Of a stretch of 64,000 bases of DNA, positions 33,919 to 56,006 are shown in pieces. The stretch is from Oligoflexia bacterium (GTDB lineage: Bacteria; Bdellovibrionota_C; UBA2361; JBGSMV01), in contig JAIBBU010000003.1 of assembly GCA_019694515.1 (NCBI GenBank), positions 124,001 through 188,000 of the forward strand, in the 5' to 3' direction. Under the pieces are notes generated by a model. That model searched no databases. It saw nothing but the letters and a program-made list of their open reading frames with translations, and was not told the DNA's origin. The translations under genes were made by a program, and so were the position numbers. The stretch's first letter is position 1; each line of letters opens with the position of its first letter.

Positions 33919-34245
33919 CTAACGCAGGAACGAGAGACGTTCTTGAATCTCGTCCGGCTTGCTCTCGTACTCTCGCAGACTCTGCTGCAGGGCCAAGGGT
34001 TCCAGATCGAGATGCAGCGCCACCCATGCGAAGCTGAACGGCTTCTTGGGTGTAAGCTTCCCAAACAACCACTGCCGGGCGCTTCTAACGATGTGCCGTT
34101 CACAGTGCGCCGTGCCGAAAGCGTCGCAAATCGCTCGGGCTAAAACGGCGGCTAACAAATTACGTTCGGGTTTAACGGGGGAGTGGGCTTCAAAATCCTC
34201 TTCGCGTTCAGGTGAGAACCGATTAACGGCTCCAGAATTACTCAT
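33919..34245 (-). CDS. Small protein of unknown function
   Basis: The 108-residue soluble protein has a charged N-terminus, a helical core (NLLAAVLARAICDAFG, then ARQWLFGK) and PFSFAWVALHLDLEPLALQQSL near the end. The layout resembles short unnamed proteins in many deltaproteobacteria that end in a PFSF...LGLDP helix-turn region, possibly nucleic-acid binding. AGGA lies upstream of the ATG. It is divergent from the RRM-bS18 gene, sharing a 282-base promoter region. Confidence 0.7.
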   Translation of the reverse strand: MSNSGAVNRFSPEREEDFEAHSPVKPERNLLAAVLARAICDAFGTAHCERHIVRSARQWLFGKLTPKKPFSFAWVALHLDLEPLALQQSLREYESKPDEIQERLSFLR

Positions 34246-34475: not shown

Positions 34476-34504
34476 TTGACATTTTTATAGCCATTAGCTA
34501 ATCT
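34476..34504 (+). promoter_or_regulatory. Strong sigma-70-type promoter for the RRM-bS18 gene
   Basis: TTGACA (34476-34481), a 17-base spacer and TAATCT (34499-34504) form a near-consensus promoter with a perfect -35 box. The expected start near 34511 gives a short leader of about 17 bases ending in AGGGA and the ATG at 34528. Such strength suits a ribosomal-protein gene. Confidence 0.8.
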
Positions 34505-34527: not shown

Positions 34528-35073
34528 ATGAAGAAAAAGCTATTTATCAGTAATTTGGATTTCGAAATCACCACTGAACAGCTCCGTGAGATGTTTGCTG
34601 AGCTTGGTGGTGTAGTCAGCGCAGTCATCGCAACCGATCGTGAGACCAAACGCTCCAAGGGCTTCGCCTTTGTTGAGATGGAGGCTGAAGATGGTGCGGA
34701 GAAGGCCATCAAGCAGCTCAACAATAAGATCATGAATGGTCGGCCGATGAAGGTCTGTGAAGACCGCGGCAAGACCGGCGGTTCCTCTGAAGAGGGTGCG
34801 GGCGGTGAAGGCGGTGAACGTAAGCGCGAGTTTCTCCCCCCGATTCAGCGCATGCAGCTTTTCAAACGACGGAAGAAGCTCGATCCTTTCATGCAGGATC
34901 CGAAGCTCACCGTTGACTATCGCGATGTTGCAATGCTCTCCAAGTTCTTAAGTGAAAGAGGACGCATTCTCTCGCGGCGGCTTACTGGCCTGACCGCGTA
35001 TAATCAGCGCAAGGTTACGAAGGCAATTAAGCGGGCTCAGCATTTAGGCCTGATGCCGTTCTCAGCAGTTTAG
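34528..35073 (+). CDS. rpsR: Fusion of an RRM RNA-binding domain with ribosomal protein bS18
   Basis: The 181-residue product has two recognisable parts. Residues 2-80 are a bacterial RRM with RNP2 LFISNL (5-10) and RNP1 KGFAFVEM (44-51), keeping the aromatic RNA-stacking positions F6, F46 and F48. Residues 81-105 are a Gly/Glu-rich linker. Residues about 109-181 are bS18, with FKRRKK, VDYRDVAMLSKFL, ERGRILSRRLTG and RKVTKAIKRAQHLGLMPF. There is no stop or frameshift between them. An in-frame ATG (M109, base 34852) lacks a Shine-Dalgarno but could allow separate bS18 synthesis. The window's rpsF-rplI pair lacks rpsR, so this is probably the functional bS18. Confidence 0.93.
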   Translation: MKKKLFISNLDFEITTEQLREMFAELGGVVSAVIATDRETKRSKGFAFVEMEAEDGAEKAIKQLNNKIMNGRPMKVCEDRGKTGGSSEEGAGGEGGERKREFLPPIQRMQLFKRRKKLDPFMQDPKLTVDYRDVAMLSKFLSERGRILSRRLTGLTAYNQRKVTKAIKRAQHLGLMPFSAV

Positions 35074-35382: not shown

Positions 35383-35793
35383 ATGGCTGTGATGCAGCAT
35401 GTTCTCTCCCCTGCCGAAATCAAGGAGGCGCTTGGCGAGGGGCGTGATCAGTACAGACTGCTTTGCTCCGGCTTCTTTGGAGTCGGGGATTGTTTCAAGT
35501 GGCAGATGGTCGAGGAACGTCAGGCGCCGACGGCGCTGAAGGGCGAGCGGCACTTTCACGTGCTGCTCAACCACCAGCTGTCGACCGGCGCTGAGGACGT
35601 GATCGCCGCGATTAGTCCGTCTCACGAAGTGCAGGCGGAGTGGGGTATGTGGCGATTCGAAGTGCACCTCAAGCACGAACGGAGGGGCGGTCGCCTTGAA
35701 TGCATCGTGTCCCGACGGGAAATGTTCGATCCCGCGTACCGAACGGTCACGACCTTCGAGTGTCGATTGGAGAGGAACGGGGGCGTACGGTAA
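35383..35793 (+). CDS. Orphan protein of unknown function in an apparently foreign segment
   Basis: The 136-residue soluble protein (MAVMQHVLSPAEIKEALGEG, then GMWRFEVHLKHERRGGRLE) has no signal peptide or membrane segment and matches no family I know. GGAAGAG lies about eight bases upstream of the ATG, after a hairpin. Its codon choice favours CTG, CTC, GTG and AAG and avoids the TTA/CTA codons that neighbours use. With the structured flanks this suggests transfer from another lineage or a chimeric assembly join. Confidence 0.6.
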   Translation: MAVMQHVLSPAEIKEALGEGRDQYRLLCSGFFGVGDCFKWQMVEERQAPTALKGERHFHVLLNHQLSTGAEDVIAAISPSHEVQAEWGMWRFEVHLKHERRGGRLECIVSRREMFDPAYRTVTTFECRLERNGGVR

Positions 35794-54977: not shown

Positions 54978-55361
54978 ATGAGAAACTACGAGTCCATAGT
55001 TATATTTGATCCCACGATTACCGAGGAGAATCTCAAGAAGGAGATCTCCAAGATTGAAACCCTGCTTCAAGGCGCGGGTGCAGCGACCATCAACGTCGAT
55101 ATTTGGGGCCGGCGCGAGATTGCCTATCTAGTGGGCAAACATAAGCACGGGCATTTCGTCTCTTTTAGCTACAGCGGAGAAGATACCGAGCTCGCCAATA
55201 AGTTAACCGCCCAGCTTCGGCTGACGGAGGTCGTGATCAAATTTCAGTCCTACCGCACCAACCTTAAGTCCCGCAAATTCAAGGGACGTCCCGGTGGTAA
55301 GTCGGTTGGCGGCGATTGGGGTTTTGACGAAGAAGGCGATGAAGCCCAAGGCGCATTTTAA
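54978..55361 (+). CDS. rpsF: Ribosomal protein bS6
   Basis: The 127-residue protein starts at MRNYESIVIFDPTITEENL; an upstream TTG would add 12 residues of non-family sequence. GRREIAYLVGKHKHGHFVSFSY is a clear bS6 motif. A C-terminal Gly/Arg/Lys-rich and acidic tail of about 25 residues follows. In most bacteria rpsR (bS18, its binding partner) follows directly; here the next gene is rplI, and bS18 is encoded 20 kb away as an RRM fusion. Confidence 0.95.
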   Translation: MRNYESIVIFDPTITEENLKKEISKIETLLQGAGAATINVDIWGRREIAYLVGKHKHGHFVSFSYSGEDTELANKLTAQLRLTEVVIKFQSYRTNLKSRKFKGRPGGKSVGGDWGFDEEGDEAQGAF

Positions 55362-55415: not shown

Positions 55416-56006
55416 ATGGAAGTGATTCTACAGCAGGATTTCCCGGCACTCGGATATGTCGGTGATCGAGTTTCGGTGCGGCGCGGTTTTGCCCGTAATT
55501 TTCTTGTGCCGCGAGGGATTGCGGTAGAAATCGGTTCGCGCAGCGCACGCGAGCTAGCGCACCGCGTTCAGGGCATTAATGCTCACAAAGCCAAGCTTAA
55601 GCTGCAGGCTCAGGAGCAGGGTGCGAAGTTGGGAGCTTTAGCGCTGGAGTTCGTGCTTAAGCTCGGCGGGCAGGGCAAAACTTTCGGCTCGGTGAGCGTG
55701 CACGATATCGAGGTGGCGCTTAAGGAGAAGGGCGTTGCTTTAGATCGCAGACAGATTCGTTTGCCGGAGCAGATCAAGAGCGGCGGCACCTTTGAAGCGA
55801 TCATCAAGCTGCATTCTGAAGTTACAGTGAATATACCAATCAAGGTAACTGTAGAGCGCGTGGCCGCACCGGAGACTGTTGACGGTGGGTCCGAGCGTAA
55901 GAAGAACAAGCGCAAAGGTCGGGGACGTGCTGAAGAGCAGACCGAGGGCGCTTCCGAATCGCCCGAGGCGGCTGCCGAAACCCCGGCTGCAGACGACCAC
56001 AACTAG
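55416..56006 (+). CDS. rplI: Ribosomal protein bL9 with an extended C-terminus
   Basis: Residues 1-150 are bL9: MEVILQQDFPALGYVGDRVSVRRGFARNFLVPRGIA at the N-terminus, a long connecting helix, then VALDRRQIRLPEQIKSGGTFEAIIKLH. About 45 extra residues follow, a basic KKNKRKGRGR stretch and an acidic Ala/Glu-rich end. bL9 is usually about 148 residues, so the tail is an addition. AGGAG precedes the ATG. It is only 54 bases from rpsF, with no room for rpsR. Confidence 0.95.
   Translation: MEVILQQDFPALGYVGDRVSVRRGFARNFLVPRGIAVEIGSRSARELAHRVQGINAHKAKLKLQAQEQGAKLGALALEFVLKLGGQGKTFGSVSVHDIEVALKEKGVALDRRQIRLPEQIKSGGTFEAIIKLHSEVTVNIPIKVTVERVAAPETVDGGSERKKNKRKGRGRAEEQTEGASESPEAAAETPAADDHN

Follow-up and report, generated by a model that had tools for sequence, protein, structure and literature searches.

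A single gene in the window (the whole stretch of DNA analysed here, 64,000 nucleotides in length) joins an RNA-binding RRM domain, through a flexible linker, to a complete ribosomal protein bS18. The evidence laid out below supports the view that this fusion protein serves as the cell's bS18, and the same architecture recurs throughout the phylum, so that every ribosome of the phylum probably carries an extra RNA-binding arm at the mRNA exit of the small subunit. Our favoured reading, to which we would give a probability of about one half, is that the 30S platform holds the RRM on a tether close to the mRNA exit, where it binds the single-stranded leaders of mRNAs. The features of the locus are as follows.

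34528..35073, + strand: RRM-bS18 fusion gene (the rpsR equivalent), 181 aa, from ATG at 34528 to TAG at 35071-35073; full-length homologues in 39 genomes
34540..34749, + strand: RRM_1 domain, residues 5-74 (Pfam PF00076, E=1.8e-23; Foldseek RRM matches with E of about 1e-9)
34540-34557, + strand: RNP2 motif LFISNL, within RRM_1
34657-34680, + strand: RNP1 motif KGFAFVEM, within RRM_1
34768..34842, + strand: Gly/Glu-rich flexible linker, about residues 81-105 (AlphaFold pLDDT below 50 at residues 83-97), variable in length and sequence across the phylum
34846..35070, + strand: complete bS18, residues 107-181 (PF01084, TIGR00165; pLDDT above 90 over most of it)
34852..34854, + strand: in-frame ATG (M109), a proposed internal start, kept only inside the window's order
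34476..34504, + strand: probable promoter, TTGACA - 17 nt - TAATCT, with TTGAC[AT]-N17-TANNNT at the matching place in genus g11
33919..34245, - strand: conserved 108-aa all-helical protein, divergent from the fusion gene and found beside it in both sets of orders

The uninterrupted frame described in the initial annotation is real: translation from 34528 to 35073 meets no internal stop, its exact coordinates and both Pfam domains were confirmed, and the RNP2 and RNP1 motifs fall at residues 5-10 and 44-51. The Ribosomal_S18 domain (PF01084) covers residues 126-176 with E=2.6e-24 and 85.5 bits against a cut-off of 21, and the NCBIfam model TIGR00165 scores 77.7 bits against a cut-off of 38.75 over residues 112-178, which indicates that the bS18 part is complete. 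It is without the zinc cysteines that some canonical copies have. When given the phylum alignment, AlphaFold predicts two confident domains and a disordered linker with a pTM of 0.43, as expected if the domains are free to move. In a Foldseek comparison the RRM resembles many RRMs of known structure, that of the chloroplast ribosomal protein cS22 among them. Chance cannot account for a frame that holds two curated domains and recurs in dozens of genomes.

The fusion is the only S18 in its host assembly (3.5 Mb in 86 contigs, 92% complete). A separate full-length rpsR elsewhere, a possibility raised in the initial annotation, was not found in this 92% complete genome. The gene for the bS6 partner is present, and it lies in the window, about 20 kb from the fusion gene, as part of an rpsF-rplI pair that lacks rpsR.

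54978..55361, + strand: rpsF (bS6; PF01250, E=2e-18), head of the operon that is missing rpsR; the bS6 match in assembly coordinates is G000:C74:178984-179250
55416..56006, + strand: rplI (bL9; PF03948 and PF01281), 54 nt after rpsF, this gap being the empty rpsR site

The normal rpsR locus is thus empty, as had been claimed from the sequence of the window, and the vacancy is not peculiar to this genome. None of ten relatives checked has an S18-like frame 3' of rpsF, and in nine of the ten rplI directly follows rpsF, at a spacing of about 5-157 nt or with a slight overlap; the deep family f14 is among these. Since rpsR is gone from its usual place throughout, it looks as if the gene moved once and became fused.

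The phylum, which to our knowledge is so far uncultured, was sampled with 46 genomes from one class and 31 genera. An S18 was recovered from 40 of these, and from all 20 that are 90% or more complete and no more than 5% contaminated. Reading of the frames in the 40 genomes gave 39 intact RRM-bS18 fusions and one frame-broken copy, so the fusion was found in every phylum member with a recovered S18. The broken copy belongs to isolate HTM.30 (G029, the assembly behind L013/L031), where the RRM and bS18 halves stand in two overlapping frames, split near RRM residue 70 (at about L031:1340-1360); this most likely reflects an error of sequencing or assembly, the contig having low coverage. An unbroken junction of the two domains in 39 independent genomes excludes sequencing error and with it the worry, also voiced at the outset, that a stop codon between the domains had been missed.

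Only one canonical S18 turned up among the phylum genomes, a zinc-type copy on contig C34 of genome G019 (L085). This copy was rejected as a genuine second S18, for C34 carries it within rpsF-ssb-rpsR, while elsewhere G019 encodes the fusion and also an rpsF of its own. The contig is a probable contaminant; its GC content is 33% against 29%, and GC together with tetranucleotide composition gave no proof of contamination.

Searches outside the phylum did not turn up the fusion. A profile built from the 39 fusions and run over 383 genomes gave full-length matches, at 210-301 bits, only inside the phylum; in 339 genomes from many other families of Bacteria there was no RRM-bS18 fusion, and the matches there, the best of 105 bits, were to genes with the RRM or S18 alone. 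Nor was a fusion found in plasmids, viral contigs or the PDB. A phage or plasmid source was considered and rejected, the matches being to the RRM only and the two longer viral alignments crossing stop codons.

Probable forebears of the fused RRM are the Rbp-type single-RRM proteins (NF058537; cyanobacterial Rbp1-3), which have the same type of RRM and a Gly-rich tail resembling the fusion linker. Stand-alone genes of this type are present in the same phylum, and indeed in the same genome as the fusion. The fusion itself scores 91.2 bits against Rbp_regulator NF058537, below the cut-off of 100, and is therefore a relative of that family rather than a member. It differs from the Rbp-type proteins in being covalently part of a ribosomal protein, and the fused RRMs group separately: in a tree of RRMs, a single branch (support 93/75; 95% of bootstrap trees) divides all 39 from the RRMs that are encoded on their own, whether in this phylum or in others. 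The alignment has only 80 columns, so the tree is consistent with a single origin and does not prove it. Taken together with the empty rpsR site, these observations are consistent with one early fusion in the phylum, after rpsR had left the rpsF-rplI operon. We infer that an Rbp-type gene, tail included, was then joined to the front of rpsR, the product being kept as the sole bS18.

The deepest relatives, L054 and L055 of family f14, show a divergent bS18 N-terminal segment from which the DPF motif is lost. Their bS6 proteins score low (E=7e-9 and 1e-12), and the bS6:bS18 pair in f14 may have been remodelled, as these sequences suggest.

The RRM is under strong purifying selection. In nine species from genus g11, median omega by the Nei-Gojobori method is lowest in bS18 (0.036), slightly higher in the RRM (0.053) and highest in the linker (0.147); these ratios are rough, with dS near saturation, and still clearly low. 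The RNP aromatics F6 (RNP2), F46 and F48 (RNP1) are kept in all 39 fusions, with one Y at F6, which marks the domain as an RRM of the RNA-binding type and not a decayed or purely structural one; it would accordingly be expected to bind single-stranded RNA. The linker, in turn, consists mostly of Gly and of charged or small residues and spans about 15-60 residues across the phylum.

What such a domain might do is suggested by the surroundings of bS18. The protein lines the mRNA exit site together with uS11 and uS7 (PMC10901742). If the bS18 part sits next to bS6 on the 30S platform as usual, every 30S subunit would bear a flexibly tethered RRM close to the mRNA exit and the Shine-Dalgarno (SD) cleft, and with a linker of this length the RRM would hover beside the emerging leader. 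At initiation it could then grip single-stranded RNA, most likely the mRNA 5' leader (or nascent transcripts), and so raise mRNA retention or selectivity, adding to SD pairing and bS1 and not replacing them. There is precedent for an arrangement of this kind in SLIRP, an RRM protein docked on the small subunit of the mitoribosome, where it holds mRNA (PMC11637978).

The remaining machinery of initiation is in place. The anti-SD sequence CCTCCTTT is intact in all eight 16S tails read, a full-length bS1 is encoded, with about six S1 domains, and bS21 was found in 42 of the 46 phylum genomes. SD motifs show an enrichment at -8 to -14 that is weaker than what the same crude caller gives for E. coli, which points to moderate SD use. 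On these grounds the idea that the RRM makes up for a lost recruiting element was rejected; the domain is best regarded as giving the ribosome an additional hold on mRNA.

The chief rival to this mRNA grip makes rRNA the target of the RRM, which would be a built-in assembly chaperone for the 30S platform or would clamp a fixed site on the 16S rRNA, with mRNA contact being unimportant. We regard it as unlikely, though it has points in its favour: bS18 joins the assembling platform already paired with bS6 in a heterodimer (PMC10931766), bacterial RRM proteins have been linked to cold adaptation (PMC9333190), and the RNP residues are kept. Against it, full 16S matches in the phylum measure 1505-1535 nt, an ordinary length, which leaves no expansion to serve as a new site (a 16S expansion as the target of the RRM was rejected for this reason), and a long linker of variable length is more in keeping with a domain that moves than with one clamped at a fixed site.

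A further proposal is that the RRM couples transcription to translation, catching nascent RNA near the site where RNA polymerase docks (bS6:bS18, uS2 and bS21). It is a special case of the mRNA grip, and we hold it to be very improbable. It draws on the finding that bS6:bS18 and bS21 belong to the interface between the 30S subunit and RNA polymerase (PMC6566652), and on the disordered N-terminal extension that bS21 has gained in the order to which the window belongs. This extension is of low complexity and about 20-90 residues long (L086 = G000:C19:68010-68165, L102, L266, L251-L265); in the sister orders bS21 is ordinary, at about 70 aa. In genomes G020 and G024 the bS21 core has Leu in place of Met and thus no ATG of its own, so that in these two genomes translation has to include the extension.

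A bolder form of the mRNA-grip reading is that a sequence-specific, eukaryote-like RRM on every 30S subunit provides a second mRNA-recruitment code at the exit, besides SD pairing and throughout the phylum, with which the bS21 extension cooperates in the window's order. We think this version unlikely.

In another reading the RRM does not stay attached. If the fusion were separated, either by initiation at M109 or by proteolysis, the products would be a normal bS18 and a free RRM that is never on the ribosome. The ATG at 34852 does lie at the start of bS18 in nearly all members of the window's order, and the linker is disordered. That said, the ATG is absent outside that order; several genomes (L040, L016, L038, L044, L041 and L055) have no ATG at all between the RRM and the bS18 core; no SD-like motif precedes M109 (ttctccccccgattcagcgcATG); and the linker keeps no fixed cleavage motif. 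The restriction to one order, the genomes without any inter-domain ATG and the missing SD motif make a conserved programme for producing free bS18 unlikely, and separation as an account of the fusion very hard to credit. The comparative evidence thus also speaks against the third refuting case of the initial annotation, a cell with nothing but short bS18 made from M109.

Expression of the gene bears on another possibility, that the RRM serves autoregulation or some other role away from the ribosome, with free RRM-bS18 binding and controlling its own or other mRNAs. The near-consensus promoter of the initial annotation stands in part. Its -35 element (TTGACA, 34476-34481) is perfect, and TTGAC[AT]-N17-TANNNT recurs, equally far from the start, in each of the nine g11 species with an intact gene; the -10 element (TAATCT, 34499-34504) matches at only three of six positions, and a strict standard promoter scan did not call the element. 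The recurrence in nine species makes it plausible. The 5' UTR would then measure about 17-25 nt (about 17-20 nt in the window), which leaves no room for a leader of the known S6:S18 type, and Rfam has no match upstream of the fusion gene and only sub-threshold, irrelevant ones upstream of rpsF; an S6:S18 leader was rejected for want of a match above threshold. Control of its own mRNA, which had been put forward as one use of the RRM, is accordingly less likely than it seemed. In E. coli bS6:bS18 does repress its own rpsF operon, and related leaders are widespread (PMC10931766); with rpsR out of that operon, some other control would be needed. With the short leader and the empty Rfam searches on the other side, an off-ribosome role strikes us as improbable.

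On its other side the fusion gene is followed by a 300-nt intergenic stretch and then a 136-aa ORF (35383-35793, + strand) with no Pfam match. The upstream 108-aa protein is divergent from the fusion in the window's order and lies upstream in the same direction in other orders. It is highly conserved and carries the motif PERNLLAAVLARAICDAFG...ARQWLFG...FSFAWVA..LDLDP, with further copies of the protein at L050:5715-6038, L061:4364-4699 and other loci across the class, and has no Pfam match above cut-off and none in NCBIfam, PHROGs or the PDB, while Foldseek found nothing. Both this protein and the bS21 extension invite follow-up as partners of the fusion.

Set beside canonical bS18 (rpsR), the fusion shares a complete bS18 domain above the cut-offs, sole-copy status and the presence of bS6, and it departs from it in the additional N-terminal RRM and linker, in a gene outside the rpsF-rplI operon and in the missing zinc cysteines. 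An RRM on a ribosomal protein is, as such, known. In plant mitochondria uS19 (Arabidopsis RPS19) is fused to an N-terminal RNP/RRM domain; that case concerns another ribosomal protein and another site on the subunit, is organellar and nuclear-encoded, and arose independently. Plant cS22 (PSRP2, chloroplast) and mS86 (mitochondrial) are RRM proteins of the small subunit and are among the PDB sequence or fold matches of the fusion, but they are separate, lineage-specific extra proteins, unfused to a core bacterial protein, and cS22 is dispensable in Arabidopsis (PMC11987935). The mammalian SLIRP/LRPPRC system likewise has a small-subunit RRM in contact with mRNA (PMC11637978); SLIRP is unfused, sits at another position and works with a PPR-type partner. 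Closest in location are the Bacteroidia, where bS18, bS6 and bS21 form a pocket that hides the anti-SD (PMC9976891). There too the proteins lining the platform have changed across a whole lineage, but the change lies in residues that conceal the anti-SD, whereas here a new RNA-binding domain has been added. What is unusual in the present case is the site, the bacterial host and the fixation across a phylum. We found no prior description of an RRM-bS18 fusion in the PDB, in NCBIfam or Pfam, or in the open-access literature searched, and none in that literature of any RRM-bearing core ribosomal protein in bacteria.

bS18 is an essential small-subunit protein of the bacterial ribosomal core, and its architecture rarely changes; in this lineage the fusion is fixed across an entire phylum. 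A phylum-wide fusion with a selected RNA-binding face would mean ribosomes equipped with an RNA-binding device where mRNA emerges. This makes testable how mRNAs are chosen in bacteria with weak or moderate SD use, and whether a sequence preference may be carried by the ribosome itself. The fusion can also serve as a clean marker of the phylum in phylogenetic work, and it offers a natural guide for putting RNA-binding domains on the N-terminus of bS18 in laboratory ribosomes.
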